Source of the DNA: Amia ocellicauda
Lineage: Eukaryota > Chordata > Actinopteri > Amiiformes > Amiidae
DNA: 64,000 nucleotides
Assembly: GCF_036373705.1 (NCBI RefSeq)
Contig: NC_089851.1
Span: 58,573,350-58,637,349, forward strand
Direction of reading: 5' to 3'
The position numbers were made by a program, and so were the translations under genes. Below are positions 46,560-63,286 of this stretch, piece after piece. The notes beneath the pieces were generated by a model. The model was not told the DNA's origin and made no database searches. It saw only the letters and a program-made list of their open reading frames with translations. Position 1 is the stretch's first letter. Every line of letters starts with the position of its first letter.

Positions 46560-46872
46560 ATTGACAGTGGTCCGTGATCTGCTGTTATGCTACTTTGCTA
46601 CTGACCATTGGGGGAGTGATAGCAAGAAAGAGAGTTAGATGTCAAGAGTCATAGATAGATAGATAGATGGATGGATGGATGGACGGCAAGGCAAGCATCT
46701 GATTGACAGTGGTCCGTGATCTGCTGTTATGCTACTATGCTACTGACCATTGGGGGAGCGATAGCAAGCAAGAGAGTTAGATATTGAGAGTCATAGATAG
46801 ATGGATGGATGGATGGATGGCAAGGCAAGAACTTGATTGACAGCGGTCCGTGATCTGCTGTTATTCTACTAT
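46560..46872. repeat. Transition from main array to tRNA-bearing satellite type
   Basis: These last monomers before the first tRNA block carry variants absent from the main array but present just upstream of every block: TTAGATGTCAAG, TTAGATATTGAG, GCAAGAAC and GACAGCGGTCC. The final monomer stops at TTATTCTACTAT (ending 46872), where the non-satellite block begins. The exact switch point is uncertain by about one monomer. Confidence 0.75.
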
Positions 46873-46894
46873 CAGCAGCAGCAGCGGCAGATTT

Positions 46895-46968
46895 GGCGCC
46901 GTGGCTTAGTTGGTTAAAGCGCCTGTCTAGTAAACAGGAGGTCCTGGGTTCAAATCCCAGCGGTGCCT
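46895..46968 (+). tRNA. tRNA-Thr (anticodon AGT), copy 1
   Basis: A 74-nt cloverleaf that would decode threonine ACU, plus ACC after A34-to-inosine editing. The acceptor GGCGCCG pairs with CGGTGCC (one G-U at 4:69), the D arm is GCTT/AAGC, the anticodon stem CCTGT/ACAGG closes loop CTAGTAA with anticodon AGT, and the T arm is CTGGG/CCCAG with loop TTCAAAT. The discriminator is T. The A box (TGGCTTAGTTGG) and B box (GGTTCAAATCC) fit the internal Pol III promoter. No intron and no encoded CCA, as expected for a eukaryote. No T4 run follows closely; the first is at 47026-47029, 58 nt downstream, so a primary transcript would carry a long trailer. The sequence is identical in all eight cassettes. 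Confidence 0.95.
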
Positions 46969-47254
46969 TAGGCGGGCTTTCTGTGCTCCTTGCGAAGCTT
47001 GTGCTTCCGCTTTGTCGACCATCAGTTTTAGCAAGATAGGCTTATCGTAAAGCCATCAGAGGACGTAATGAACCGGAAAGCCAACTGGACAGACGCCGGT
47101 TTGTAAAGAAGAACCAGAACCCAAAGGACAAGCGCTACGGCCAACGTCCAATTCCCATTGCCGCCCCTGGACAGTCGCAACAGGGAGCTTGTTGCTCCCG
47201 TCAACCTTACGTTTTCACCTCTGTGTGCTTCCTTTGTTGCAGCCTGCATCCAGA
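46969..47254. other. Unrecognised ~286-bp body between tRNA-Thr(AGT) and (TTTTG)n
   Basis: I recognise no gene here. Visible structure: a GAAGC/GCTTC hairpin with loop TTGT at 46994-47007, a T4 run at 47026-47029, and a perfect 6-bp GGGAGC/GCTCCC hairpin with loop TTGTT at 47183-47199. A plus-strand frame stays open from 47039 into the microsatellite but has no ATG near its start. A 73-codon minus-strand frame (47028-47249) has a hydrophobic run but no supporting signal. The order tRNA head, unrelated body, simple-repeat tail resembles a tRNA-derived SINE, yet no target-site duplication is seen. Confidence 0.6.
47026..47029 (+). terminator. First T4 run downstream of tRNA-Thr(AGT), copy 1
   Basis: The first run of four T after the tRNA, 58 nt past its end and followed by AGC. 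It is a possible but weak and distant Pol III stop. The nearer runs are only TTT. Confidence 0.4.
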
Positions 47255-47305
47255 TTTTGTTTTGTTTTGTTTTGTTTTGTTTGGTTTTGTTTGGTTTTGT
47301 TTTTT
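47255..47305. repeat. (TTTTG)n microsatellite with TTTGG interruptions, copy 1
   Basis: Five TTTTG units, then TTTGG-TTTTG-TTTGG-TTTTG, then T6. It is the shortest of the eight tracts. The two TTTGG interruptions are shared only with cassettes 2 and 4. Confidence 0.95.
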
Positions 47306-47347
47306 GCCTTACGCCTGAGTGTAGGCACTGGGGAATGGGAGAGTCCT

Positions 47348-47421
47348 GGCACCGTGGCTTAGTTGGTCAAAGCGCCTGTCTTGTAAACAGGAAACCCTGG
47401 GGTCGACTCCCAGCAGTGCCT
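47348..47421 (+). tRNA. tRNA-Thr (anticodon TGT), damaged B box, copy 1
   Basis: A 74-nt cloverleaf with loop CTTGTAA, anticodon TGT, for threonine ACA. It differs from the Thr(AGT) gene of the same block at about ten positions, so the two are paralogues. Acceptor GGCACCG/CAGTGCC has a C6-A67 mismatch, present in all eight copies. Here the T loop is GTCGACT instead of TTCGACT: the invariant T54 is G (position 47402), which breaks the T54-A58 pair and spoils the B box. No close terminator follows; the first T5 is at 47474-47478. Probably weakly expressed or a pseudogene. Confidence 0.85.
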
Positions 47422-47473
47422 TGGTTTATGTTGGCCTAGGCAATGGAAAGGAAGTTTCTAAACGCTCAATACA

Positions 47474-47478
47474 TTTTT
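47474..47478 (+). terminator. T5 run, putative Pol III terminator of tRNA-Thr(TGT), copy 1
   Basis: First T run of four or more after Thr(TGT), 53 nt past its end. The same run lies at the same distance in every cassette (first T at 49637, 51850, 53732, 55910, 58406, 60629 and 63001). Confidence 0.6.
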
Positions 47479-47575
47479 GCAAGATGGCCGTCCACAGCAA
47501 GCAGCTTAAGGTTACTGTAGCCACAGTCTGGCAAGCTGTCCGCCAGAAGTAGAAACAATAACAAGGGGCGGGGGG

Positions 47576-47579
47576 AAAA
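47576..47579 (-). terminator. Pol III T4 terminator of tRNA-Asn, copy 1
   Basis: AAAA on plus is TTTT on minus, starting 7 nt past the Asn discriminator base: the normal position for a tRNA terminator. Confidence 0.85.
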
Positions 47580-47585
47580 GTGGGC

Positions 47586-47659
47586 CGTCCCTGGGTGGAT
47601 TCGAACCACCATCCTTTTGGTTAACAGCCAAACGCGCTGAACGATTGCGCCACAGAGAC
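47586..47659 (-). tRNA. tRNA-Asn (anticodon GTT), G19 lost, copy 1
   Basis: Read on minus, a 74-nt cloverleaf for asparagine AAC/AAU. Acceptor GTCTCTG/CAGGGAC, D stem GCGC/GCGC, anticodon stem TTTGG/CCAAA with loop CTGTTAA, T arm GGTGG/CCACC with loop TTCGAAT, discriminator G. The B box is canonical. The D loop is AATCGTTCA where the intact copies read AATCGGTCA: G19 (47641) is T, which removes the G19-C56 elbow pair and the last G of the A box. A proper T4 terminator is present. The fold is otherwise complete, so this is a recently damaged gene rather than an old relic. Confidence 0.88.
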
Positions 47660-47759
47660 AGACAGAGGTGTTGTGGTTGCTGCAGTCGTGCAGTTCCTTC
47701 ACAGTTGCCAAAAATCATTTCCAGCACACGATTTTCTTTGTCGTTGAATGCAACATACG
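47660..47759. other. 5' flank of tRNA-Asn and right cassette junction, copy 1
   Basis: About 100 bp upstream of the minus-strand Asn gene. No TATA-like element is obvious. It ends in CAACATACG directly before the satellite half-monomer TGACCATTGGGGG. The same junction is found in all eight cassettes. Confidence 0.75.
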
Positions 47760-49020
47760 TGACCATTGGGGGAGCGATAGCAAGCAAGAGAGTTAGATAT
47801 CGAGAGTCATAGATAGATAGATAGATAGATGGATGGATGGACGGCAAGGCAAGCATCTGATTGACAGTGTTCCGTGATCTGCTGTTATGCTACTATGCTA
47901 CTGACCATTGGGGGAGCGATAGCAAGCAAGAGAGTTAGATAACAAGAGTCATAGATAGATAGATGGATGGATGGATGGACGGCAAGGCAAGCATCTGATT
48001 GACAGTGGTCCGTGATCTGCTGTTATGCTACTATGCTACTGACCATTGGGGGAGCGATAGCAAGTAAGAGAATTAGATATCGAGAGTCATTGATAGATAG
48101 ATAGATAGATGGATGGATGGACGGCAAGGCAAGCATCTGATTGACAGTGGTCCGTGATCTGCTGTTATGCTACAATGCTACTGACCATTGGGGGAGCGAT
48201 AGCAAGCAAGAGAGTTAGATATCAAGAGTCATAGATAGATAGATAGATAGATGTATGGATGGACGGCAAGGCAAGCATCTGATTGACAGTGGTCCGTGAT
48301 CTGCTGTTATGCTACAATGCTACTGACCATTGGGGGAGCGATAGCAAGCAAGAGAGTTAGATATCAAGAGTCATAGATAGATAGATAGATAAATGGATGG
48401 ATGGACGGCAAGGCAAGCATCTGATTGACAGTGGTCCGTGATCTGCTGTTATGATACTATGCTACTGACCATTGGGGGAGCGATAGCAAGCAAGAGAGTT
48501 AGATATCAAGAGTCATAGATAGATAGATAGATGGATGGATGGATGGACGGCAAGGCAAGCATCTGATTGACAGTGGTCCGTGATCTGCTGTTATGCTACT
48601 ATGCTACTGACCATTGGGGGAGCGATAGCAAGCAAGAGAGTTAGATATCAAGAGTCATAGATAGGTAGATGGATGGGTGGATGGATGGACGTCAAGGCAA
48701 GCATCTGATTGACAGTGGTCCGTGATCTGCTGTTATGCTACTATGCTACTGACCATTGGGGGAGCGATAGCAAGCAAGAGAGTTAGATGTCAAGAGTCAT
48801 AGATAGATAGATAGATGGATGGATGGATGGACGGCAAGGCAAGCATCTGATTGACAGTGGTCCGTGATCTGCTGTTATGCTACTATGCTACTGACCATTG
48901 GGGGAGCGATAGCAAGCAAGAGAGTTAGATATTGAGAGTCATAGATAGATGGATGGATGGATGGATGGCAAGGCAAGAACCTGATTGACAGCGGTCCGTG
49001 ATCTGCTGTTATTCTACTAT
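47760..49020. repeat. Satellite spacer between cassettes 1 and 2 (1,261 bp)
   Basis: About nine monomers of the tRNA-associated type. Markers in order: GTGTTCCG, GATAACAAG, CAAGTAAG, two CTACAATG, a GATGTATGG linker, ATAAATGG, GATACTATG, the unusual GGTAGATGGATGGGTGG linker with GACGTC, GATGTC, and GATATTGAG with AAGAACC. Spacers 2-3, 4-5 and 6-7 have exactly the same length. Confidence 0.95.
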
Positions 49021-49042
49021 CAGCAGCAGCAGCGGCAGATTT

Positions 49043-49116
49043 GGCGCCGTGGCTTAGTTGGTTAAAGCGCCTGTCTAGTAAACAGGAGGTCCTGGGTTCA
49101 AATCCCAGCGGTGCCT
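49043..49116 (+). tRNA. tRNA-Thr (anticodon AGT), copy 2
   Basis: Identical over all 74 nt to copy 1, with intact cloverleaf, A box and B box. The first T4 downstream is again 58 nt away. Confidence 0.95.
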
Positions 49117-49402
49117 TAGGCGGGCTTTCTGTGCTCCTTGCGAAGCTTGTGCTTCCGCTTTATCGACCATCAGTTTTAGCAAGATAGGCTTATCGTAAAG
49201 CCATCAGAGGACGTAATGAACCGGAAAGCCAACTGGACAGACGCCGGTTTGTAAAGAAGAACTAGAACCCAAAGGACAAGCGCTACGGCCAACGTCCAAT
49301 TCCCATTGCCGCCCCTGGACAGTCGCAACAGGGAGCTTGTTGCTCCCGTCAACCTTACGTTTTCACCTCTGTGTGCTTCCTTTGTTGCAGCCTGCATCCA
49401 GA

Positions 49403-49468
49403 TTTTGTTTTGTTTTGTTTTGTTTTGTTTTGTTTTGTTTTGTTTGGTTTTGTTTGGTTTTGTTTTTT
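49403..49468. repeat. (TTTTG)n with TTTGG interruptions, copy 2
   Basis: Eight TTTTG units, then the TTTGG-TTTTG-TTTGG-TTTTG block and T6: three pure units more than copy 1. Confidence 0.95.
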
Positions 49469-49510
49469 GCCTTACGCCTGAGTGTAGGCACTGGGGAATG
49501 GGAGAGTCCT

Positions 49511-49584
49511 GGCACCGTGGCTTAGTTGGTCAAAGCGCCTGTCTTGTAAACAGGAAACCCTGGGGTCGACTCCCAGCAGTGCCT
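49511..49584 (+). tRNA. tRNA-Thr (anticodon TGT), damaged B box, copy 2
   Basis: Identical to copy 1, including G at T54 (49565), G26 and the C6-A67 acceptor mismatch. The first T5 is at 49637-49641. Confidence 0.85.
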
Positions 49585-49738
49585 TGGTTTATGTTGGCCT
49601 AGGCAATGGAAAGGAAGTTTCTAAACGCTCAATACATTTTTGCAAGATGGCCATCCACAGCAAGCAGCTTAAGGTTACTGTAGCCACAGTCTGGCAAGCT
49701 GTCCGCCAGAAGTAGAAACAATAACAAGGGGCGGGGGG

Positions 49739-49742
49739 AAAA
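49739..49742 (-). terminator. Pol III T4 terminator of tRNA-Asn, copy 2
   Basis: TTTT on minus, 7 nt past the Asn 3' end. Confidence 0.85.
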
Positions 49743-49748
49743 GTGGGC

Positions 49749-49822
49749 CGTCCCTGGGTGGATTCGAACCACCATCCTTTTGGTTAACAGCCAAACACGC
49801 TGAACGATTGCGCCACAGAGAC
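49749..49822 (-). tRNA. tRNA-Asn (anticodon GTT), G19 lost, copy 2
   Basis: Carries the G19-to-T change (49804) and one private change: the D stem 3' strand reads GCGT, turning a G-C pair into a tolerated G-U. It is the most altered Asn copy of the eight. Anticodon, T arm and acceptor are intact. Confidence 0.85.
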
Positions 49823-49922
49823 AGACAGAGGTGTTGTGGTTGCTGCAGTCGTGCAGTTCCTTCACAGTTGCCAAAAATCATTTCCAGCACACGATTTTCT
49901 TTGTCGTTGAATGCAACATACG

Positions 49923-51183
49923 TGACCATTGGGGGAGCGATAGCAAGCAAGAGAGTTAGATATCGAGAGTCATAGATAGATAGATAGATAGATGGATGGA
50001 TGGACGGCAAGGCAAGCATCTGATTGACAGTGTTCCGTGATCTGCTGTTATGCTACTATGCTACTGACCATTGGGGGAGCGATAGCAAGCAAGAGAGTTA
50101 GATAACAAGAGTCATAGATAGATAGATGGATGGATGGATGGACGGCAAGGCAAGCATCTGATTGACAGTGGTCCGTGATCTGCTGTTATGCTACTATGCT
50201 ACTGACCATTGGGGGAGCGATAGCAAGTAAGAGAGTTAGATATCGAGAGTCATTGATAGATAGATAGATAGATGGATGGATGGACGGCAAGGCAAGCATC
50301 TGATTGACAGTGGTCCGTGATCTGCTGTTATGCTACAATGCTACTGACCATTGGGGGAGCGATAGCAAGCAAGAGAGTTAGATATCAAGAGTCATAGATA
50401 GATAGATAGATAGATGTATGGATGGACGGCAAGGCAAGCATCTGATTGACAGTGGTCCGTGATCTGCTGTTATGCTACAATGCTACTGACCATTGGGGGA
50501 GCGATAGCAAGCAAGAGAGTTAGATATCAAGAGTCATAGATAGATAGATAGATAGATGGATGGATGGACGGCAAGGCAAGCATCTGATTGACAGTGGTCC
50601 GTGATCTGCTGTTATGATACTATGCTACTGACCATTGGGGGAGCGATAGCAAGCAAGAGAGTTAGATATCAAGAGTCATAGATAGATAGATAGATGGATG
50701 GATGGATGGACGGCAAGGCAAGCATCTGATTGACAGTGGTCCGTGATCTGCTGTTATGCTACTATGCTACTGACCATTGGGGGAGCGATAGCAAGCAAGA
50801 GAGTTAGATATCAAGAGTCATAGATAGGTAGATGGATGGGTGGATGAATGGACGTCAAGGCAAGCATCTGATTGACAGTGGTCCGTGATCTGCTGTTATG
50901 CTACTATGCTACTGACCATTGGGGGAGCGATAGCAAGCAAGAGAGTTAGATGTCAAGAGTCATAGATAGATAGATAGATGGATGGATGGATGGACGGCAA
51001 GGCAAGCATCTGATTGACAGTGGTCCGTGATCTGCTGTTATGCTACTATGCTACTGACCATTGGGGGAGCGATAGCAAGCAAGAGAGTTAGATATTGAGA
51101 GTCATAGATAGATGGATGGATGGATGGACGGCAAGGCAAGAACCTGATTGACAGCGGTCCGTGATCTGCTGTTATTCTACTAT
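49923..51183. repeat. Satellite spacer between cassettes 2 and 3 (1,261 bp)
   Basis: Same monomer order as the 1-2 spacer but with GTGGATGAATGGACGTC in place of GTGGATGGATGGACGTC and a normal AGATGG linker in place of ATAAATGG. It matches the 4-5 spacer in these markers. Confidence 0.95.
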
Positions 51184-51205
51184 CAGCAGCAGCAGCAGCA
51201 GATTT

Positions 51206-51279
51206 GGCGCCGTGGCTTAGTTGGTTAAAGCGCCTGTCTAGTAAACAGGAGGTCCTGGGTTCAAATCCCAGCGGTGCCT
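51206..51279 (+). tRNA. tRNA-Thr (anticodon AGT), copy 3
   Basis: Identical to copy 1 across all 74 nt, although the flanking body and microsatellite differ from that copy. Confidence 0.95.
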
Positions 51280-51565
51280 TAGGCGGGCTTTCTGTGCTCC
51301 TTGCGAAGCTTGTGCTTCCGCTTTGTCGACCATCAGTTTTAGCAAGATAGGCTTATCGTAAAGCCATCAGAGGACGTAATGAACCGGAAAGCCAACTGGA
51401 CAGACGCCGGTTTGTAAAGAAGAACCAGAACCCAAAGGACAAGCGCTACGGCCAACGTCCAATTCCCATTGCCGCCCCTGGACAGTCGCAACAGGGAGCT
51501 TGTTGCTCCCGTCAACCTTACGTTTTCACCTCTGTGTGCTTCCTTTGTTGCAGCCTGCATCCAGA

Positions 51566-51650
51566 TTTTGTTTTGTTTTGTTTTGTTTTGTTTTGTTTTG
51601 TTTTGTTTTGTTTTGTTTTGTTTTGTTTTGTTTTGTTTTGTTTTGTTTTG

Positions 51651-51681
<31 letters not shown>
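51566..51681. repeat. Pure (TTTTG)22 microsatellite, copy 3
   Basis: Twenty-two uninterrupted TTTTG units and T6. The pattern opens long artefactual frames on both strands (Phe-Val-Leu-Phe-Cys type and Lys-Thr-Lys-Gln-Asn type), which are not genes. Confidence 0.95.
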
Positions 51682-51723
51682 GCCTTACGCCTGAGTGTAG
51701 GCACTGGGGAATGGGAGAGTCCT

Positions 51724-51797
51724 GGCACCGTGGCTTAGTTGGTCAAAGCACCTGTCTTGTAAACAGGAAACCCTGGGTTCGACTCCCAGCAGTGCCT
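51724..51797 (+). tRNA. tRNA-Thr (anticodon TGT), B box intact, copy 3
   Basis: The T loop is the canonical TTCGACT, so the B box GGTTCGACTCC matches consensus. Position 26 is A (51750) instead of G, a change shared with copies 5, 6 and 7 and usually tolerated. The C6-A67 acceptor mismatch remains. First T5 at 51850-51854. Confidence 0.9.
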
Positions 51798-51951
51798 TGG
51801 TTTATGTTGGCCTAGGCAATGGAAAGGAAGTTTCTAAACGCTCAATACATTTTTGCAAGATGGCCATCCACAGCAAGCAGCTTAAGGTTACTGTAGCCAC
51901 AGTCTGGCAAGCTGTCCGCCAGAAGTAGAAACAATAACAAGGGGCGGGGGG

Positions 51952-51955
51952 AAAA
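51952..51955 (-). terminator. Pol III T4 terminator of tRNA-Asn, copy 3
   Basis: TTTT on minus, 7 nt past the Asn 3' end. Confidence 0.85.
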
Positions 51956-51961
51956 GTGGGC

Positions 51962-52035
51962 CGTCCCTGGGTGGATTCGAACCACCATCCTTTTGGTTAA
52001 CAGCCAAACGCGCTGACCGATTGCGCCACAGAGAC
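51962..52035 (-). tRNA. tRNA-Asn (anticodon GTT), intact, copy 3
   Basis: The D loop AATCGGTCA keeps G18 and G19, so A box, B box, cloverleaf and tertiary elbow are all as expected for a eukaryotic tRNA-Asn. With the T4 stop in place, this is one of four copies (3, 5, 7, 8) that look fully functional. Confidence 0.95.
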
Positions 52036-52135
52036 AGACAGAGGTGTTGTGGTTGCTGCAGTCGTGCAGTTCCTTCACAGTTGCCAAAAATCATTTCCAG
52101 CACACGATTTTCTTTGTCGTTGAATGCAACATACG

Positions 52136-53120
52136 TGACCATTGGGGGAGCGATAGCAAGCAAGAGAGTTAGATATCGAGAGTCATAGATAGATAGATAG
52201 ATAGATAGATGGATGGATGGACGGCAAGGCAAGCATCTGATTGACAGTGGTCCGTGATCTGCTGTTATGCTACTATGCTACTGACCATTGGGTGAGCGAA
52301 AGCAAGTAAGAGAGTTAGATATCAAGAGTCATAGATAGATAGATAGATAGATGGATGGATGGACGGCAAGGCAAGCATCTGATTGACAGTGGTCCGTGAT
52401 CTGCTGTTATGCTACAATGCTACTGACCATTGGGGGAGCGATAGCAAGCAAGAGAGTTAGATATCAAGAGTCATAGATAGATAGATAGATAAATGGATGG
52501 ATGGACGGCAAGGCAAGCATCTGATTGACAGTGGTCCGTGATCTGCTGTTATGATACTATGCTACTGACCATTGGGGGAGCGATAGCAAGCAAGAGAGTT
52601 AGATATCAAGAGTCATAGATAGATAGATAGATGGATGGATGGATGGACGGCAAGGCAAGCATCTGATTGACAGTGGTCCGTGATCTGCTGTTATGCTACT
52701 ATGCTACTGACCATTGGGGGAGCGATAGCAAGCAAGAGAGTTAGATATCAAGAGTCATAGATAGGTAGATGGATGGGTGGATGGATGGACGTCAAGGCAA
52801 GCATCTGATTGACAGTGGTCCGTGATCTGCTGTTATGCTACTATGCTACTGACCATTGGGGGAGCGATAGCAAGCAAGAGAGTTAGATGTCAAGAGTCAT
52901 AGATAGATAGATAGATGGATGGATGGATGGACGGCAAGGCAAGCATCTGATTGACAGTGGTCCGTGATCTGCTGTTATGCTACTATGCTACTGACCATTG
53001 GGGGAGCGATAGCAAGCAAGAGAGTTAGATATTGAGAGTCATAGATAGATGGATGGATGGATGGATGGCAAGGCAAGAACCTGATTGACAGCGGTCCGTG
53101 ATCTGCTGTTATTCTACTAT
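52136..53120. repeat. Satellite spacer between cassettes 3 and 4 (985 bp)
   Basis: About seven monomers, the shortest spacer. The second monomer has the marker GGGTGAGCGAAAGCAAGTAAG, seen only after cassettes with intact Asn (3, 5, 7, 8). The GTGTTCCG, GATAACAAG and GATGTATGG monomers of the 1,261-bp spacers are missing. It shares ATAAATGG and GTGGATGGATGGACGTC with the spacer before cassette 2. Confidence 0.95.
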
Positions 53121-53142
53121 CAGCAGCAGCAGCGGCAGATTT

Positions 53143-53216
53143 GGCGCCGTGGCTTAGTTGGTTAAAGCGCCTGTCTAGTAAACAGGAGGTCCTGGGTTCA
53201 AATCCCAGCGGTGCCT
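53143..53216 (+). tRNA. tRNA-Thr (anticodon AGT), copy 4
   Basis: Identical to the other seven copies; intact promoter boxes and cloverleaf. Confidence 0.95.
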
Positions 53217-53502
53217 TAGGCGGGCTTTCTGTGCTCCTTGCGAAGCTTGTGCTTCCGCTTTATCGACCATCAGTTTTAGCAAGATAGGCTTATCGTAAAG
53301 CCATCAGAGGACGTAATGAACCGGAAAGCCAACTGGACAGACGCCGGTTTGTAAAGAAGAACTAGAACCCAAAGGACAAGCGCTACGGCCAACGTCCAAT
53401 TCCCATTGCCGCCCCTGGACAGTCGCAACAGGGAGCTTGTTGCTCCCGTCAACCTTACGTTTTCACCTCTGTGTGCTTCCTTTGTTGCAGCCTGCATCCA
53501 GA

Positions 53503-53563
53503 TTTTGTTTTGTTTTGTTTTGTTTTGTTTTGTTTTGTTTGGTTTTGTTTGGTTTTGTTTTTT
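53503..53563. repeat. (TTTTG)n with TTTGG interruptions, copy 4
   Basis: Seven TTTTG units followed by the interrupted block and T6; one unit shorter than copy 2. Confidence 0.95.
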
Positions 53564-53605
53564 GCCTTACGCCTGAGTGTAGGCACTGGGGAATGGGAGA
53601 GTCCT

Positions 53606-53679
53606 GGCACCGTGGCTTAGTTGGTCAAAGCGCCTGTCTTGTAAACAGGAAACCCTGGGGTCGACTCCCAGCAGTGCCT
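53606..53679 (+). tRNA. tRNA-Thr (anticodon TGT), damaged B box, copy 4
   Basis: Same sequence as copies 1 and 2, with G at T54 (53660) and G26. First T5 at 53732-53736. Likely impaired. Confidence 0.85.
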
Positions 53680-53833
53680 TGGTTTATGTTGGCCTAGGCA
53701 ATGGAAAGGAAGTTTCTAAACGCTCAATACATTTTTGCAAGATGGCCATCCACAGCAAGCAGCTTAAGGTTACTGTAGCCACAGTCTGGCAAGCTGTCCG
53801 CCAGAAGTAGAAACAATAACAAGGGGCGGGGGG

Positions 53834-53837
53834 AAAA
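53834..53837 (-). terminator. Pol III T4 terminator of tRNA-Asn, copy 4
   Basis: TTTT on minus, 7 nt past the Asn 3' end. Confidence 0.85.
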
Positions 53838-53843
53838 GTGGGC

Positions 53844-53917
53844 CGTCCCTGGGTGGATTCGAACCACCATCCTTTTGGTTAACAGCCAAACGCGCTGAAC
53901 GATTGCGCCACAGAGAC
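53844..53917 (-). tRNA. tRNA-Asn (anticodon GTT), G19 lost, copy 4
   Basis: Matches copy 1, with T at G19 (53899). It lacks the extra D-stem change private to copy 2, so that change arose after the 2/4 duplication. Confidence 0.88.
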
Positions 53918-54017
53918 AGACAGAGGTGTTGTGGTTGCTGCAGTCGTGCAGTTCCTTCACAGTTGCCAAAAATCATTTCCAGCACACGATTTTCTTTGTC
54001 GTTGAATGCAACATACG

Positions 54018-55278
54018 TGACCATTGGGGGAGCGATAGCAAGCAAGAGAGTTAGATATCGAGAGTCATAGATAGATAGATAGATAGATGGATGGATGGAC
54101 GGCAAGGCAAGCATCTGATTGACAGTGTTCCGTGATCTGCTGTTATGCTACTATGCTACTGACCATTGGGGGAGCGATAGCAAGCAAGAGAGTTAGATAA
54201 CAAGAGTCATAGATAGATAGATGGATGGATGGATGGACGGCAAGGCAAGCATCTGATTGACAGTGGTCCGTGATCTGCTGTTATGCTACTATGCTACTGA
54301 CCATTGGGGGAGCGATAGCAAGTAAGAGAGTTAGATATCGAGAGTCATTGATAGATAGATAGATAGATGGATGGATGGACGGCAAGGCAAGCATCTGATT
54401 GACAGTGGTCCGTGATCTGCTGTTATGCTACAATGCTACTGACCATTGGGGGAGCGATAGCAAGCAAGAGAGTTAGATATCAAGAGTCATAGATAGATAG
54501 ATAGATAGATGTATGGATGGACGGCAAGGCAAGCATCTGATTGACAGTGGTCCGTGATCTGCTGTTATGCTACAATGCTACTGACCATTGGGGGAGCGAT
54601 AGCAAGCAAGAGAGTTAGATATCAAGAGTCATAGATAGATAGATAGATAGATGGATGGATGGACGGCAAGGCAAGCATCTGATTGACAGTGGTCCGTGAT
54701 CTGCTGTTATGATACTATGCTACTGACCATTGGGGGAGCGATAGCAAGCAAGAGAGTTAGATATCAAGAGTCATAGATAGATAGATAGATGGATGGATGG
54801 ATGGACGGCAAGGCAAGCATCTGATTGACAGTGGTCCGTGATCTGCTGTTATGCTACTATGCTACTGACCATTGGGGGAGCGATAGCAAGCAAGAGAGTT
54901 AGATATCAAGAGTCATAGATAGGTAGATGGATGGGTGGATGAATGGACGTCAAGGCAAGCATCTGATTGACAGTGGTCCGTGATCTGCTGTTATGCTACT
55001 ATGCTACTGACCATTGGGGGAGCGATAGCAAGCAAGAGAGTTAGATGTCAAGAGTCATAGATAGATAGATAGATGGATGGATGGATGGACGGCAAGGCAA
55101 GCATCTGATTGACAGTGGTCCGTGATCTGCTGTTATGCTACTATGCTACTGACCATTGGGGGAGCGATAGCAAGCAAGAGAGTTAGATATTGAGAGTCAT
55201 AGATAGATGGATGGATGGATGGACGGCAAGGCAAGAACCTGATTGACAGCGGTCCGTGATCTGCTGTTATTCTACTAT
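54018..55278. repeat. Satellite spacer between cassettes 4 and 5 (1,261 bp)
   Basis: Same length and markers as the 2-3 spacer, including GTGGATGAATGGACGTC. Together with cassettes 2-5 this defines a two-cassette superunit of about 4.1 kb. Confidence 0.95.
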
Positions 55279-55300
55279 CAGCAGCAGCAGCAGCAGATTT

Positions 55301-55374
55301 GGCGCCGTGGCTTAGTTGGTTAAAGCGCCTGTCTAGTAAACAGGAGGTCCTGGGTTCAAATCCCAGCGGTGCCT
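55301..55374 (+). tRNA. tRNA-Thr (anticodon AGT), copy 5
   Basis: Identical to the other copies over 74 nt. Confidence 0.95.
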
Positions 55375-55660
55375 TAGGCGGGCTTTCTGTGCTCCTTGCG
55401 AAGCTTGTGCTTCCGCTTTGTCGACCATCAGTTTTAGCAAGATAGGCTTATCGTAAAGCCATCAGAGGACGTAATGAACCGGAAAGCCAACTGGACAGAC
55501 GCCGGTTTGTAAAGAAGAACCAGAACCCAAAGGACAAGCGCTACGGCCAACGTCCAATTCCCATTGCCGCCCCTGGACAGTCGCAACAGGGAGCTTGTTG
55601 CTCCCGTCAACCTTACGTTTTCACCTCTGTGTGCTTCCTTTGTTGCAGCCTGCATCCAGA

Positions 55661-55710
55661 TTTTGTTTTGTTTTGTTTTGTTTTGTTTTGTTTTGTTTTG
55701 TTTTGTTTTG

Positions 55711-55741
<31 letters not shown>
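55661..55741. repeat. Pure (TTTTG)15 microsatellite, copy 5
   Basis: Fifteen uninterrupted units and T6; the shortest of the pure tracts. Confidence 0.95.
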
Positions 55742-55783
55742 GCCTTACGCCTGAGTGTAGGCACTGGGGAATGGGAGAGTCCT

Positions 55784-55857
55784 GGCACCGTGGCTTAGTT
55801 GGTCAAAGCACCTGTCTTGTAAACAGGAAACCCTGGGTTCGACTCCCAGCAGTGCCT
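55784..55857 (+). tRNA. tRNA-Thr (anticodon TGT), B box intact, copy 5
   Basis: Same as copy 3: canonical T loop, A26, C6-A67 mismatch. First T5 at 55910-55914. Confidence 0.9.
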
Positions 55858-56011
55858 TGGTTTATGTTGGCCTAGGCAATGGAAAGGAAGTTTCTAAACG
55901 CTCAATACATTTTTGCAAGATGGCCATCCACAGCAAGCAGCTTAAGGTTACTGTAGCCACAGTCTGGCAAGCTGTCCGCCAGAAGTAGAAACAATAACAA
56001 GGGGCGGGGGG

Positions 56012-56015
56012 AAAA
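56012..56015 (-). terminator. Pol III T4 terminator of tRNA-Asn, copy 5
   Basis: TTTT on minus, 7 nt past the Asn 3' end. Confidence 0.85.
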
Positions 56016-56021
56016 GTGGGC

Positions 56022-56095
56022 CGTCCCTGGGTGGATTCGAACCACCATCCTTTTGGTTAACAGCCAAACGCGCTGACCGATTGCGCCACAGAGAC
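56022..56095 (-). tRNA. tRNA-Asn (anticodon GTT), intact, copy 5
   Basis: G18-G19 present, all stems paired, canonical A and B boxes; matches copy 3. Confidence 0.95.
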
Positions 56096-56195
56096 AGACA
56101 GAGGTGTTGTGGTTGCTGCAGTCGTGCAGTTCCTTCACAGTTGCCAAAAATCATTTCCAGCACACGATTTTCTTTGTCGTTGAATGCAACATACG

Positions 56196-57744
56196 TGACC
56201 ATTGGGGGAGCGATAGCAAGCAAGAGAGTTAGATATCGAGAGTCATAGATAGATAGATAGATAGATAGATGGATGGATGGACGGCAAGGCAAGCATCTGA
56301 TTGACAGTGGTCCGTGATCTGCTGTTATGCTACTATGCTACTGACCATTGGGTGAGCGAAAGCAAGTAAGAGAGTTAGATATCAAGAGTCATAGATAGAT
56401 AGATAGATAGATGGATGGATGGACGGCAAGGCAAGCATCTGATTGACAGTGCTCCGTGATCTGCTGTTATGCTACAATGCTACTGACCATTGGGGGAGCG
56501 ATAGCAAGCAAGAGAGTTAGATATCAAGAGTCATAGATAGATAGATAGATAGATGGATGGATGGACGGCAAGGCAAGCATCTGATTGACAGTGGTCCGTG
56601 ATCTGCTGTTATGCTACTATGCTACTGACCATTGGGGGAGCGATAGCAAGCAAGAGAGTTAGATAACAAGAGTCATAGATAGATAGATGGATGGATGGAT
56701 GGACGGCAAGGCAAGCATCTGATTGACAGTGGTCCGTGATCTGCTGTTATGCTACTATGCTACTGACCATTGGGGGAGCGATAGCAAGTAAGAGAGTTAG
56801 ATATCGAGAGTCATTGATAGATAGATAGATAGATGGATGGATGGACGGCAAGGCAAGCATCTGATTGACAGTGGTCCGTGATCTGCTGTTATGCTACAAT
56901 GCTACTGACCATTGGGGGAGCGATAGCAAGCAAGAGAGTTAGATATCAAGAGTCATAGATAGATAGATAGATAGATGTATGGATGGACGGCAAGGCAAGC
57001 ATCTGATTGACAGTGGTCCGTGATCTGCTGTTATGCTACAATGCTACTGACCATTGGGGGAGCGATAGCAAGCAAGAGAGTTAGATATCAAGAGTCATAG
57101 ATAGATAGATAGATAGATGGATGGATGGACGGCAAGGCAAGCATCTGATTGACAGTGGTCCGTGATCTGCTGTTATGATACTATGCTACTGACCATTGGG
57201 GGAGCGATAGCAAGCAAGAGAGTTAGATATCAAGAGTCATAGATAGATAGATAGATGGATGGATGGATGGACGGCAAGGCAAGCATCTGATTGACAGTGG
57301 TCCGTGATCTGCTGTTATGCTACTATGCTACTGACCATTGGGGGAGCGATAGCAAGCAAGAGAGTTAGATATCAAGAGTCATAGATAGGTAGATGGATGG
57401 GTGGATGAATGGACGTCAAGGCAAGCATCTGATTGACAGTGGTCCGTGATCTGCTGTTATGCTACTATGCTACTGACCATTGGGGGAGCGATAGCAAGCA
57501 AGAGAGTTAGATGTCAAGAGTCATAGATAGATAGATAGATGGATGGATGGATGGACGGCAAGGCAAGCATCTGATTGACAGTGGTCCGTGATCTGCTGTT
57601 ATGCTACTATGCTACTGACCATTGGGGGAGCGATAGCAAGCAAGAGAGTTAGATATTGAGAGTCATAGATAGATGGATGGATGGATGGACGGCAAGGCAA
57701 GAACCTGATTGACAGCGGTCCGTGATCTGCTGTTATTCTACTAT
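56196..57744. repeat. Satellite spacer between cassettes 5 and 6 (1,549 bp)
   Basis: The longest spacer, about eleven monomers. It begins like the 3-4 spacer (GGGTGAGCGAAAG, then a GTGCTCCG monomer) and then runs through the full 1,261-type order from GATAACAAG onward. It therefore looks like a junction of the two spacer types. Confidence 0.93.
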
Positions 57745-57766
57745 CAGCAGCAGCAGCAGCAGATTT

Positions 57767-57840
57767 GGCGCCGTGGCTTAGTTGGTTAAAGCGCCTGTCT
57801 AGTAAACAGGAGGTCCTGGGTTCAAATCCCAGCGGTGCCT
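57767..57840 (+). tRNA. tRNA-Thr (anticodon AGT), copy 6
   Basis: Identical to the other copies over 74 nt. Confidence 0.95.
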
Positions 57841-58126
57841 TAGGCGGGCTTTCTGTGCTCCTTGCGAAGCTTGTGCTTCCGCTTTGTCGACCATCAGTTT
57901 TAGCAAGATAGGCTTATCGTAAAGCCATCAGAGGACGTAATGAACCGGAAAGCCAACTGGACAGACGCCGGTTTGTAAAGAAGAACCAGAACCCAAAGGA
58001 CAAGCGCTACGGCCAACGTCCAATTCCCATTGCCGCCCCTGGACAGTCGCAACAGGGAGCTTGTTGCTCCCGTCAACCTTACGTTTTCACCTCTGTGTGC
58101 TTCCTTTGTTGCAGCCTGCATCCAGA

Positions 58127-58206
58127 TTTTGTTTTGTTTTGTTTTGTTTTGTTTTGTTTTGTTTTGTTTTGTTTTGTTTTGTTTTGTTTTGTTTTGTTTT
58201 GTTTTG

Positions 58207-58237
<31 letters not shown>
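58127..58237. repeat. Pure (TTTTG)21 microsatellite, copy 6
   Basis: Twenty-one uninterrupted units and T6. Confidence 0.95.
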
Positions 58238-58279
58238 GCCTTACGCCTGAGTGTAGGCACTGGGGAATGGGAGAGTCCT

Positions 58280-58353
58280 GGCACCGTGGCTTAGTTGGTC
58301 AAAGCACCTGTCTTGTAAACAGGAAACCCTGGGTTCGACTCCCAGCAGTGCCT
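58280..58353 (+). tRNA. tRNA-Thr (anticodon TGT), B box intact, copy 6
   Basis: Matches copies 3, 5 and 7 with A26 and T loop TTCGACT. First T5 at 58406-58410. It is the last marker of the intact-class left half of this mosaic cassette. Confidence 0.9.
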
Positions 58354-58507
58354 TGGTTTATGTTGGCCTAGGCAATGGAAAGGAAGTTTCTAAACGCTCA
58401 ATACATTTTTGCAAGATGGCCATCCACAGCAAGCAGCTTAAGGTTACTGTAGCCACAGTCTGGCAAGCTGTCCGCCAGAAGTAGAAACAATAACAAGGGG
58501 CGGGGGG

Positions 58508-58511
58508 AAAA
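58508..58511 (-). terminator. Pol III T4 terminator of tRNA-Asn, copy 6
   Basis: TTTT on minus, 7 nt past the Asn 3' end. Confidence 0.85.
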
Positions 58512-58517
58512 GTGGGC

Positions 58518-58591
58518 CGTCCCTGGGTGGATTCGAACCACCATCCTTTTGGTTAACAGCCAAACGCGCTGAACGATTGCGCCACAGAGAC
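58518..58591 (-). tRNA. tRNA-Asn (anticodon GTT), G19 lost, copy 6
   Basis: Carries T at G19 (58573) like copies 1, 2 and 4, although the Thr(TGT) gene 165 bp to its left is of the intact class. A private base change just 5' of the gene (AGAGTTGTTG in place of AGAGGTGTTG on plus) lies outside the tRNA. Confidence 0.88.
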
Positions 58592-58691
58592 AGACAGAGT
58601 TGTTGTGGTTGCTGCAGTCGTGCAGTTCCTTCACAGTTGCCAAAAATCATTTCCAGCACACGATTTTCTTTGTCGTTGAATGCAACATACG

Positions 58692-59952
58692 TGACCATTG
58701 GGGGAGCGATAGCAAGCAAGAGAGTTAGATATCGAGAGTCATAGATAGATAGATAGATAGATGGATGGATGGACGGCAAGGCAAGCATCTGATTGACAGT
58801 GTTCCGTGATCTGCTGTTATGCTACTATGCTACTGACCATTGGGGGAGCGATAGCAAGCAAGAGAGTTAGATAACAAGAGTCATAGATAGATAGATGGAT
58901 GGATGGATGGACGGCAAGGCAAGCATCTGATTGACAGTGGTCCGTGATCTGCTGTTATGCTACTATGCTACTGACCATTGGGGGAGCGATAGCAAGTAAG
59001 AGAGTTAGATATCGAGAGTCATTGATAGATAGATAGATAGATGGATGGATGGACGGCAAGGCAAGCATCTGATTGACAGTGGTCCGTGATCTGCTGTTAT
59101 GCTACAATGCTACTGACCATTGGGGGAGCGATAGCAAGCAAGAGAGTTAGATATCAAGAGTCATAGATAGATAGATAGATAGATGTATGGATGGACGGCA
59201 AGGCAAGCATCTGATTGACAGTGGTCCGTGATCTGCTGTTATGCTACAATGCTACTGACCATTGGGGGAGCGATAGCAAGCAAGAGAGTTAGATATCAAG
59301 AGTCATAGATAGATAGATAGATAGATGGATGGATGGACGGCAAGGCAAGCATCTGATTGACAGTGGTCCGTGATCTGCTGTTATGATACTATGCTACTGA
59401 CCATTGGGGGAGCGATAGCAAGCAAGAGAGTTAGATATCAAGAGTCATAGATAGATAGATAGATGGATGGATGGATGGACGGCAAGGCAAGCATCTGATT
59501 GACAGTGGTCCGTGATCTGCTGTTATGCTACTATGCTACTGACCATTGGGGGAGCGATAGCAAGCAAGAGAGTTAGATATCAAGAGTCATAGATAGGTAG
59601 ATGGATGGGTGGATGAATGGACGTCAAGGCAAGCATCTGATTGACAGTGGTCCGTGATCTGCTGTTATGCTACTATGCTACTGACCATTGGGGGAGCGAT
59701 AGCAAGCAAGAGAGTTAGATGTCAAGAGTCATAGATAGATAGATAGATGGATGGATGGATGGACGGCAAGGCAAGCATCTGATTGACAGTGGTCCGTGAT
59801 CTGCTGTTATGCTACTATGCTACTGACCATTGGGGGAGCGATAGCAAGCAAGAGAGTTAGATATTGAGAGTCATAGATAGATGGATGGATGGATGGACGG
59901 CAAGGCAAGAACCTGATTGACAGCGGTCCGTGATCTGCTGTTATTCTACTAT
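58692..59952. repeat. Satellite spacer between cassettes 6 and 7 (1,261 bp)
   Basis: The 1,261-bp type with GTGTTCCG first and GTGGATGAATGGACGTC near the end, as expected after a G19-lost Asn copy. Confidence 0.95.
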
Positions 59953-59974
59953 CAGCAGCAGCAGCAGCAGATTT

Positions 59975-60048
59975 GGCGCCGTGGCTTAGTTGGTTAAAGC
60001 GCCTGTCTAGTAAACAGGAGGTCCTGGGTTCAAATCCCAGCGGTGCCT
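59975..60048 (+). tRNA. tRNA-Thr (anticodon AGT), copy 7
   Basis: Identical to the other copies over 74 nt. Confidence 0.95.
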
Positions 60049-60334
60049 TAGGCGGGCTTTCTGTGCTCCTTGCGAAGCTTGTGCTTCCGCTTTGTCGACC
60101 ATCAGTTTTAGCAAGATAGGCTTATCGTAAAGCCATCAGAGGACGTAATGAACCGGAAAGCCAACTGGACAGACGCCGGTTTGTAAAGAAGAACCAGAAC
60201 CCAAAGGACAAGCGCTACGGCCAACGTCCAATTCCCATTGCCGCCCCTGGACAGTCGCAACAGGGAGCTTGTTGCTCCCGTCAACCTTACGTTTTCACCT
60301 CTGTGTGCCTCCTTTGTTGCAGCCTGCATCCAGA

Positions 60335-60429
60335 TTTTGTTTTGTTTTGTTTTGTTTTGTTTTGTTTTGTTTTGTTTTGTTTTGTTTTGTTTTGTTTTGT
60401 TTTGTTTTGTTTTGTTTTGTTTTGTTTTG

Positions 60430-60460
<31 letters not shown>
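60335..60460. repeat. Pure (TTTTG)24 microsatellite, copy 7
   Basis: Twenty-four uninterrupted units and T6; the longest of the eight tracts. Confidence 0.95.
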
Positions 60461-60502
60461 GCCTTACGCCTGAGTGTAGGCACTGGGGAATGGGAGAGTC
60501 CT

Positions 60503-60576
60503 GGCACCGTGGCTTAGTTGGTCAAAGCACCTGTCTTGTAAACAGGAAACCCTGGGTTCGACTCCCAGCAGTGCCT
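60503..60576 (+). tRNA. tRNA-Thr (anticodon TGT), B box intact, copy 7
   Basis: Same as copies 3, 5 and 6 (A26, T loop TTCGACT, C6-A67 mismatch). First T5 at 60629-60633. Confidence 0.9.
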
Positions 60577-60730
60577 TGGTTTATGTTGGCCTAGGCAATG
60601 GAAAGGAAGTTTCTAAACGCTCAATACATTTTTGCAAGATGGCCATCCACAGCAAGCAGCTTAAGGTTACTGTAGCCACAGTCTGGCAAGCTGTCCGCCA
60701 GAAGTAGAAACAATAACAAGGGGCGGGGGG

Positions 60731-60734
60731 AAAA
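60731..60734 (-). terminator. Pol III T4 terminator of tRNA-Asn, copy 7
   Basis: TTTT on minus, 7 nt past the Asn 3' end. Confidence 0.85.
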
Positions 60735-60740
60735 GTGGGC

Positions 60741-60814
60741 CGTCCCTGGGTGGATTCGAACCACCATCCTTTTGGTTAACAGCCAAACGCGCTGACCGAT
60801 TGCGCCACAGAGAC
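60741..60814 (-). tRNA. tRNA-Asn (anticodon GTT), intact, copy 7
   Basis: G18-G19 present, canonical stems and promoter boxes; matches copies 3 and 5. Confidence 0.95.
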
Positions 60815-60914
60815 AGACAGAGGTGTTGTGGTTGCTGCAGTCGTGCAGTTCCTTCACAGTTGCCAAAAATCATTTCCAGCACACGATTTTCTTTGTCGTT
60901 GAATGCAACATACG

Positions 60915-62329
60915 TGACCATTGGGGGAGCGATAGCAAGCAAGAGAGTTAGATATCGAGAGTCATAGATAGATAGATAGATAGATAGATGGATGGATGGA
61001 CGGCAAGGCAAGCATCTGATTGACAGTGGTCCGTGATCTGCTGTTATGCTACTATGCTACTGACCATTGGGTGAGCGAAAGCAAGTAAGAGAGTTAGATA
61101 TCAAGAGTCATAGATAGATAGATAGATAGATGGATGGATGGACGGCAAGGCAAGCATCTGATTGACAGTGCTCCGTGATCTGCTGTTATGCTACAATGCT
61201 ACTGACCATTGGGGGAGCGATAGCAAGCAAGAGAGTTAGATATCAAGAGTCATAGATAGATAGATAGATAGATAGATGGATGGATGGACGGCAAGGCAAG
61301 CATCTGATTGACAGTGGTCCGTGATCTGCTGTTATGCTACTTTGCTACTGACCATTGGGGGAGCGATAGCAAGCAAGAGAGTTAGATGTCAAGAGTCATA
61401 GATAGATAGATAGATGGATGGATGGATGGACGGCAAGGCAAGCATCTGATTGACAGTGGTCCGTGATCTGCTGTTATGCTACTATGCTACTGACCATTGG
61501 GGGAGCGATAGCAAGCAAGAGAGTTAGATAACAAGAGTCATAGATAGATAGATGGATGGATGGATGGACGGCAAGGCAAGCATCTGATTGACAGTGGTCC
61601 GTGATCTGCTGTTATGCTACAATGCTACTGACCATTGGGGGAGCGATAGCAAGCAAGAGAGTTAGATATCAAGAGTCATAGATAGATAGATAGATAGATA
61701 GATGGATGGATGGATGGCAAGGCAAGCACCTGATTGACAGTGGTCCGTGATCTGCTGTTATGCTACAATGCTACTGACCATTGGGGGAGCGATAGCAAGC
61801 AAGAGAGTTAGATATCAAGAGTCATAGATAGATAGATAGATAGATGGATGGATGGACGGCAAGGCAAGCATCTGATTGACAGTGGTCCGTGATCTGCTGT
61901 TATGATACTATGCTACTGACCATTGGGGGAGCGATAGCAAGCAAGAGAGTTAGATATCAAGAGTCATAGATAGATAGATGGATGGATGGATGGATGGACG
62001 GCAAGGCAAGCATCTGATTGACAGTGGTCCGTGATCTGCTGTTATGCTACTTTGCTTCTGACCATTGGGGGAGCGATAGCAAGCAAGAGAGTTAGATGTC
62101 AAGAGTCATAGATAGATAGATAGACAGATGGATGGATGGACGGCAAGGCAAGCACCTGATTGACAGTGGTCCGTGATCTGCTGTTATGCTACTATGCTAC
62201 TGACCATTGGGGGAGCGATAGCAAGCAAGAGAGTTAGATATTGAGAGTCATAGATAGATGGATGGATGGATGGACGGCAAGGCAAGAACCTGATTGACAG
62301 CGGTCCGTGATCTGCTGTTATTCTACTAT
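60915..62329. repeat. Satellite spacer between cassettes 7 and 8 (1,415 bp)
   Basis: Begins with the GGGTGAGCGAAAG and GTGCTCCG monomers, then has an order found in no other spacer: CTACTTTGC with GATGTC (twice), GATAACAAG, two CTACAATG, GATACTATG, two monomers with GCACCTG, and a GACAGATGG linker before the final GATATTGAG monomer. It is the most rearranged of the spacers. Confidence 0.93.
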
Positions 62330-62351
62330 CAGCAGCAGCAGCGGCAGATTT

Positions 62352-62425
62352 GGCGCCGTGGCTTAGTTGGTTAAAGCGCCTGTCTAGTAAACAGGAGGTC
62401 CTGGGTTCAAATCCCAGCGGTGCCT
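62352..62425 (+). tRNA. tRNA-Thr (anticodon AGT), copy 8
   Basis: Identical to the other copies, even though the body of this cassette has private substitutions. Confidence 0.95.
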
Positions 62426-62711
62426 TAGGCGGGCTTTCTGTGCTCCTTGCGAAGCTTGTGCTTCCGCTTTGTCGACCATCAGTTTTAGCAAGATAGGCTT
62501 ATCGTAAAGCCATCAGAGGACGTAATGAACCGGAAAGCCAACTGGACAGACGCCGGTTTGTAAAGAAGAACCAGAACCCAAAGGACACGCGCTACGGCCA
62601 ACGTCCAATTCCCATTGCCGCCCCTGGACAGTCGCAACAGGGAGCTTGTTGCTCCCGTCAACCTTACGTTTTCACCTCTGTGTGCTTCCTTTGTTGCAGT
62701 CTGCATCCAGA

Positions 62712-62801
62712 TTTTGTTTTGTTTTGTTTTGTTTTGTTTTGTTTTGTTTTGTTTTGTTTTGTTTTGTTTTGTTTTGTTTTGTTTTGTTTTGTTTTGTTTT
62801 G

Positions 62802-62832
<31 letters not shown>
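62712..62832. repeat. Pure (TTTTG)23 microsatellite, copy 8
   Basis: Twenty-three uninterrupted units and T6. Confidence 0.95.
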
Positions 62833-62874
62833 GCCTTACGCCTGAGTGTAGGCACTGGGGAATGGGAGAGTCCT

Positions 62875-62948
62875 GGCACCGTGGCTTAGTTGGTCAAAGC
62901 GCCTGTCTTGTAAACAGGAAACCCTGGGTTCGACTCCCAGCAGTGCCT
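62875..62948 (+). tRNA. tRNA-Thr (anticodon TGT), most canonical copy 8
   Basis: The only copy with both G26 and the canonical T loop TTCGACT, so probably closest to the ancestral gene from which the G26/T54G and A26 classes derive. The C6-A67 mismatch is present here too and so predates the amplification. First T5 at 63001-63005. Confidence 0.92.
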
Positions 62949-63102
62949 TGGTTTATGTTGGCCTAGGCAATGGAAAGGAAGTTTCTAAACGCTCAATACA
63001 TTTTTGCAAGATGGCCGTCCACAGCAAGCAGCTTAAGGTTACTGTAGCCACAGTCTGGCAAGCTGTCCGCCAGAAGTAGAAACAATAACAAGGGGCGGGG
63101 GG

Positions 63103-63106
63103 AAAA
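63103..63106 (-). terminator. Pol III T4 terminator of tRNA-Asn, copy 8
   Basis: TTTT on minus, 7 nt past the Asn 3' end. Confidence 0.85.
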
Positions 63107-63112
63107 GTGGGC

Positions 63113-63186
63113 CGTCCCTGGGTGGATTCGAACCACCATCCTTTTGGTTAACAGCCAAACGCGCTGACCGATTGCGCCACAGAGAC
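63113..63186 (-). tRNA. tRNA-Asn (anticodon GTT), intact, copy 8
   Basis: G18-G19 present, canonical boxes and stems, close T4 stop; looks functional. Confidence 0.95.
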
Positions 63187-63286
63187 AGACAGAGGTGTTG
63201 TGGTTGCTGCAGTCGTGCAGTTCCTTCACAGTTGCCAAAAATCATTTCCAGCACACGATTTTCTTTGTCGTTGAATGCAACATACG

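Follow-up and report, generated by a model that had tools for sequence, protein, structure and literature searches.

Thr-Thr-Asn tRNA gene cassettes within a GATA-rich satellite higher-order repeat of Amia ocellicauda

A stretch of 64,000 nucleotides from the fish Amia ocellicauda (NCBI RefSeq assembly GCF_036373705.1, contig NC_089851.1, positions 58573350-58637349, forward strand), referred to here as the window, carries repeated blocks of transfer RNA (tRNA) genes set in a GATA-rich satellite. The contig, C2 in what follows, is one of 385 in an assembly of 988 Mb. The mitochondrial contig of this assembly has a COX1 frame open over 447 codons under the vertebrate code, and its gene order, read by eye, looks like that of a ray-finned fish. 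ARAGORN called 24 tRNA genes between positions 46895 and 63187 of the window, three in each of eight blocks, and all of them lie above the Rfam tRNA gathering score (63.7-73.1 bits against a cut-off of 29). In 8/8 blocks, or cassettes, Thr-AGT and Thr-TGT genes on the plus strand are followed by a convergent Asn-GTT gene on the minus strand, as the initial annotation of this DNA had read them from the letters alone. With 24 genes in eight head-to-tail units, each holding several tRNA genes, the locus is a tandem tRNA gene array. A (TTTTG)n tract is the main source of length differences among the window cassettes. The features, with cassettes 2 to 8 placed by ARAGORN, Rfam and their junctions, are as follows.

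1-46872, plus strand: uninterrupted 142/146/150-bp GATA-rich satellite array (Tandem Repeats Finder, TRF, and monomer anchor spacing)
46861-46872, plus strand: left junction TTATTCTACTAT, identical in 8/8; also from 49009, 51172, 53109, 55267, 57733, 59941 and 62318
46873-47759, plus strand: cassette 1, with Thr-AGT 46895-46968 (+), (TTTTG)n, Thr-TGT 47348-47421 (+) and Asn-GTT 47583-47660 (-)
47760-47772, plus strand: right junction TGACCATTGGGGG, where the satellite resumes; identical after all eight cassettes
47760-49020, plus strand: inter-cassette satellite of about 8 monomers, the variant order of which recurs in other intervals
49021-49922, plus strand: cassette 2, gene order as in cassette 1
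51184-52135, plus strand: cassette 3, gene order as in cassette 1
53121-54017, plus strand: cassette 4, gene order as in cassette 1
55279-56195, plus strand: cassette 5, gene order as in cassette 1
57745-58691, plus strand: cassette 6, gene order as in cassette 1
59953-60914, plus strand: cassette 7, gene order as in cassette 1
62330-63286, plus strand: cassette 8, gene order as in cassette 1

The left junction TTATTCTACTAT closes a variant monomer and leads into the cassette start CAGCAGC, while the cassette end CATACG directly precedes TGACCATTGGGGG; both arrangements hold for 8/8 window cassettes. An uninterrupted monomer reads CTACTAT-GCTAC-TGACC at this place, and 5 bp (GCTAC) are replaced at the cassette. 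In cassette 1, the first TTTT, the usual stop signal of RNA polymerase III, is found about 55 bp behind each of the two Thr genes and close behind the Asn gene.

The satellite monomer carries a GATA/GATG tract. TRF reported a period of 142 with 352.6 copies over positions 1-51183 (89% matches), and across the whole window the monomer anchors are spaced 142 bp apart in 192 cases, 146 bp in 104 and 150 bp in 57. Between cassettes, the monomer labels 0,1,2/8,3,4/9,5,6/10,7 recur; three of the seven inter-cassette intervals hold an identical 8-monomer series, and the others are near-identical, shortened or extended. Because the monomer variants recur in the same order, a cassette plus about eight monomers is a true higher-order repeat. 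The other attribute of a satellite higher-order repeat, a long homogeneous array of one monomer family, is also present (period 142; 11,130 exact occurrences of the uninterrupted core in the assembly). Three levels of repetition are thus nested: monomer, cassette unit and block.

Exact pattern searches were made over the whole assembly, with complete counts and about 100 places listed per pattern. A 31-mer across the right junction occurs 559 times (169 forward, 390 reverse) and its reversed control not once, so this junction is not a product of chance. A 35-mer from the cassette interior occurs 514 times. The eight window copies are therefore a small part of the total. C2 is the sole contig among the listed places of all cassette patterns searched, and others may carry copies as well. 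A similarity search with cassette DNA gave at least 40 full-length matches, window copies included, at 53.5-59.3 Mb of C2 and on both strands (the best 40 of 638 candidates). All 30 loci fetched by similarity, three of which are window cassettes, have satellite on both flanks and the right junction in common. A plasmid search with the cassette found no match, and none is expected for animal DNA.

Identical junctions had been taken in the initial annotation as the mark of one insertion, or one capture of a tRNA cluster, followed by amplification. Both junctions are indeed identical throughout the window, but genome-wide the left end falls into three types. Type A, that of the window, gave 170 matches to a pattern with two ambiguous letters; type B, in which satellite passes into the spacer at TTACC/TAACG, gave 205 (one ambiguous letter); and type C, at GATTG/CAAGATAGG, gave 151, with no match to any control. 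Units of types B and C start beyond Thr-AGT, and the copies examined (loci L042, L043 and L096) lack this gene. In type B, the Thr anticodon is often CGT instead of TGT. Some A units are also incomplete: a 591-bp unit in L045 is without Thr-TGT, and 871-bp units with A left ends in L015, L016 and L017 (C2:55.42-55.43 Mb), which alternate with full cassettes, give no Thr-AGT call. The Asn genes of these 871-bp cassettes have the anticodon ATT. The three left-end types add up to 526 against 559 right ends, the two ends being counted separately and not paired. If A units are credited with three genes and B and C units with two each, the number of tRNA genes is estimated at about 1,220, or somewhat fewer given the incomplete A units. 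Differing junctions had been named beforehand as a sign of independent insertions, and the left ends do differ; however, the right junction is common to all three classes, which makes later deletions a simpler account than independent insertions. A single composite origin, in one joining event, with deletions afterwards would account for several left ends that share one right end.

The units are near-identical. Among 92 cores, taken from Thr-TGT to the right edge, 87 lie within 5.5% of the consensus and comprise 62 distinct haplotypes. The five outliers, at 29.5-67% and hence beyond the 15% limit, were dropped from the diversity, tree and pair-breaking tests (L053_51393793, L042_51394806, L075_52905522, L077_53212140 and L030_58499304).

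Two copies of the cassette were found outside satellite arrays, each with partial monomer sequence. L094 (C2:51.07 Mb) is a single complete trio in which all three tRNAs are called, the Asn gene at 48.8 bits only. A short GATA/GATG tract and the satellite tail adjoin it on the left, whereas the right side has no more of the satellite than its first 26 bp before other DNA follows; there is no array. The order of parts in L095 (C2:51.15 Mb) is a circular permutation of the unit: first the end of Thr-TGT, then Asn, the right edge and about 20 bp of satellite head, followed directly by Thr-AGT and its spacer. The whole sits in other DNA. These are the two solo-type copies found among the listed places (about 100 of 514) of the interior 35-mer. 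In the flank of the solo copy, L094:2300-2900 resembles, by eye, a Polinton-type packaging gene.

In L041, and a second time in L093, an array edge holds an older, decayed trio, whose aligned pieces mostly match the cassette at 80-86% identity. Satellite adjoins this relic on the left only, and its right side has putative decayed Leu- and Asp-like tRNA sequences, read by eye; Rfam did not report these two. Thirty-three copies of the edge block, the query included, have at least 750 bp aligned (from the best 40 of 755 candidates), 29 of them on C2 at 51.3-60.8 Mb and four on small contigs, with C52, C58 and C135 among the contigs. A tree of 92 rows was rooted on the relic, the 87 array cassettes entering as 88 rows (one L041 copy twice). 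All 87 form one clade, with the relic, L094 and L095 outside (support 96/92). Support for the order in which L095 and L094 branch is weak (92/30). Another clade is made up of 20 type-B copies (97/90). Further, six successive gaps between A cassettes near 56.3 Mb are repeated 383 kb on. Four of them are identical, and of the other two, one differs by a single monomer (146 bp) and the other by 489 bp; the arrays lie in duplicated blocks.

Two side observations concern the surroundings of the edge. In the flank of the relic, L041:1-1500 resembles, by eye, a reverse transcriptase of the long interspersed element (LINE) type. Beside the edge of the cassette array (L041:5200-7001 and L049:30-3102; C2:51.33 Mb) is a second tandem tRNA array with Pro AGG/TGG and Leu GAG calls, spaced about 550-760 bp apart and without GATA satellite.

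The explanation that we consider best, and probably correct, combines joint origin, amplification, deletion, block duplication and a passenger role of the genes. A Thr-Thr-Asn unit would have been joined once to two halves of a GATA-rich 142-bp sequence, the satellite 'tail' preceding Thr-AGT and the 'head' following Asn at a distance of about 100 bp. The 142-bp monomers may then have undergone unequal exchange and duplication, by which units with and without the trio spread together. Two separate deletions would have removed Thr-AGT, each founding its own arrays, and whole blocks, array plus edge, would have been duplicated over about 10 Mb of C2. The tRNA genes would have been good genes at amplification and still fold, but the satellite may now carry most of them along as passengers, which are probably methylated and for the most part silent in germ cells. 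The head joint is kept in the array cassettes examined, the joints recur in the solo copy, where no array is present, and the higher-order repeats are ordered. The single origin and joint amplification of cassette and satellite, as proposed in the initial annotation, are well supported by the shared right junction and the clade of 87 cassettes. The further step of one insertion into the satellite is not established, because L094 has satellite pieces on both sides without an array and the relic in L041 and L093 has satellite on its left only. Since the solo copy has only partial monomers and falls outside the array clade, the composite unit may predate the long arrays.

The passenger role is suggested by the variation within the cassettes. 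Over the 87 cores, nucleotide diversity at sites outside cytosine-guanine dinucleotides (CpG) is 0.026 in the Thr-TGT and Asn genes and 0.018 in the spacers (permutation P for higher values in the tRNA genes 0.14); at CpG sites it is 0.128 and 0.094, respectively (P 0.22). CpG sites are about five times more variable than non-CpG sites, and this would be expected of methylated DNA. In the 26 distinct left halves, CpG diversity of Thr-AGT exceeds that of its spacer (0.146 versus 0.063). Changes that break base pairs are close in number to the neutral expectation, with 7 against 10.7 in Thr-TGT and 12 against 13.5 in Asn (P 0.34). Over all 92 cores the Asn anticodon is GTT in 74 and ATT in 14, and the Thr anticodon is TGT in 68, CGT in 22 and AGT in one. 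Judged from these sequences, most tRNA copies are probably passengers of the satellite; the genes appear to have been good when amplified, and single copies now seem to be under little or no selection.

Several observations weigh against parts of this account. Thr and Asn tRNAs can still be called in every one of the 87 kept cores, and pair-breaking changes in Thr-TGT are somewhat below neutrality (7 versus 10.7 expected, P 0.06). Non-CpG diversity of Thr-AGT is below that of its spacer (0.011 versus 0.020 in the 26 distinct left halves), and non-CpG sites with a repeated minor allele number 1/66 in the gene and 8/247 in the spacer. Because of the callable genes, the fewer pair breaks in Thr-TGT and the lower non-CpG variation of Thr-AGT, weak selection might still be acting. 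As to the order of events, concerted evolution alone could give the same tree if L094 left an early array, in which case L094 need not predate the arrays. The edge relic does not always neighbour a cassette: in the part of C2 that the listed right junctions cover, up to 54.64 Mb, there are 13 long copies of it, of which six have such a junction at a distance of about 3 kb or less; L093 is one of the seven that do not, yet it adjoins a satellite array. Finally, the copy counts rest on one assembly of DNA that is hard to assemble.

A different order of events, in which a long satellite array came first, one of its monomers received the trio, and turnover of the satellite then multiplied that monomer, is a serious contender, though we think it somewhat less likely to be true than false. 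Long cassette-free arrays do exist (positions 1-46872 of the window), the 11,130 exact uninterrupted cores far outnumber the 559 right junctions, and no sequence similarity of the monomer to the cassette was detected. Partial monomers around the solo copy in place of an array and a relic with satellite on one side are harder to reconcile with it, and inspection of the junctions by eye revealed neither transposon ends nor a clear target-site duplication. The trio may have been inserted simply into a satellite that was already complete, but this is no longer the sole reading. That the trio unit instead spread as a mobile element, or through extrachromosomal circles that reinserted, with the arrays secondary, appears unlikely. 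The permuted unit in L095 sits in other DNA as if a circle or tandem unit had been opened at another point, and L094 is a solo unit; however, L095 could also be the trimmed remains of an old tandem array, just two solo-type copies are known from the places listed, and every listed copy of the searched patterns is on C2. Transposition was also considered and set aside, no terminal signals, A-tail or clear target duplication, as of a SINE or Helitron, being visible by eye at the window, L094 and L095 junctions, where no formal search was made. Collapsed or expanded repeats that falsify copy number and order are a concern with any satellite of this kind, and an N run does lie at about C2:53.116-53.118 Mb (L039:1-1362, and L046), directly before a plus-strand satellite array. 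But the copies differ from one another in 62 haplotypes and the type-B copies form their own clade, and an assembly artefact is therefore very improbable.

It has also to be asked whether the array functions to supply Thr and Asn tRNAs in large amounts, its copy number being kept for a stage of high demand such as oogenesis, by analogy with the maternal tRNA hypothesis for zebrafish chromosome arm 4R. The scores of all 24 window tRNAs and the callable genes in the 87 kept cores would agree with such a role, and in zebrafish the majority of tRNA genes lie on 4R, next to a block-specific satellite (PMC11075544). On the other side, the Thr-TGT and Asn genes are no more conserved than the spacers and their CpG sites vary strongly, in window cassette 1 some 55 bp separate each Thr gene from the first TTTT that follows it, the examined B and C units are without Thr-AGT, and the 47 scored 5S ribosomal RNA (rRNA) matches are all off C2. 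We therefore regard this role as doubtful.

A more speculative reading is that the tRNA unit gave rise to the satellite: the 142-bp monomer would consist of the 3' flank of the unit fused to its 5' flank after loss of the tRNA genes. This is a tentative idea that we hold to be rather improbable. If true, a tandem or circular unit would be the source of the tRNA arrays and, by deletion, of a new chromosome-specific satellite, and the solo and permuted copies would be survivors of the founding stage. Derivation of the satellite from the cassette sequence itself was rejected, no similarity between monomer and cassette having been found.

Tandem tRNA clusters and satellites are each common, and here they are combined in one higher-order repeat. 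The outlying single copies look like the founding unit, and satellite birth, gene capture, deletion and block duplication may therefore be readable in one chromosome. Copies that fold well yet experience little selection can inflate tRNA gene counts in genomes of this kind. In addition, array classes with diagnostic variants (Thr-CGT, Asn-ATT) allow a test of whether tRNA-rich heterochromatin in fish feeds translation in the egg or embryo. A separate large tRNA array is present on C27 at 4.25-4.55 Mb (L002-L005), where the four loci examined are tRNA-Cys (GCA) and L002 has a tandem unit of about 226/454 bp; thus, tandem tRNA amplification extends beyond C2. A 5S rRNA array lies at 7.4-9.8 Mb of C8 (L051, L052), its first four genes about 2.35 kb apart, and more copies are found on small contigs.

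Tandem repetition of tRNA genes has precedents. Xenopus has a tandem tRNA repeat, and in the protist Entamoeba arrays of tRNA genes with short tandem repeats in their spacers are the general form of tRNA gene organization. The tandem arrangement of tRNA genes is the point of likeness with Entamoeba (cited in Bermudez-Santana, 2010, PMC2888827, as far as the available text goes), whereas the arrays described here look like satellite passengers. Clustering of tRNA genes and pseudogenes is frequent in some fish, at 65% in zebrafish and 87% in stickleback (PMC2888827). The human 1q23.3 tRNA tandem repeat has a 7.3-kb, GC-rich, CTCF-binding unit in 9-43 copies per allele (Darrow and Chadwick, 2014, PMC4041453; available part). 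As in the present locus, every unit of this large and homogeneous array contains several tRNA genes; identity there is 98% and copy number varies. Here, by contrast, a cassette of about 1 kb or less lies inside a 142-bp satellite, in more than 500 copies and with nested repeat levels. In zebrafish 4R, tRNA genes occur together with a block-specific satellite and maternal 5S genes, and maternal tRNAs have been proposed (Wilson and Postlethwait, 2024, PMC11075544). A likeness may lie in its Region-2, where most tRNA genes are in one chromosome block with the satellite MOSAT-2, although the available part of that article describes no tRNA gene inside the satellite unit. In Amia the listed copies on C2 represent the trio family alone among the tRNA genes, and Cys arrays lie on C27. 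Maternal 5S genes lie in the zebrafish block, whereas the scored 5S matches here are on C8 and small contigs (47 of 47,274 candidates); a zebrafish-like 5S/tRNA block is not supported by these matches (0/47 on C2), though one may exist. The Arabidopsis SYY cluster likewise has tandem tRNA genes, at constitutive heterochromatin and silent in most tissues, but it is a plant Ser/Tyr cluster, and the accessible portion of its description mentions no satellite monomer array between units (PMC12308677). No earlier case of tRNA genes within a satellite higher-order repeat was found in the open-licence literature, as judged by titles and the beginnings of abstracts. What sets the Amia locus apart from the systems compared here is that its tRNA genes belong to the higher-order unit of the satellite itself.

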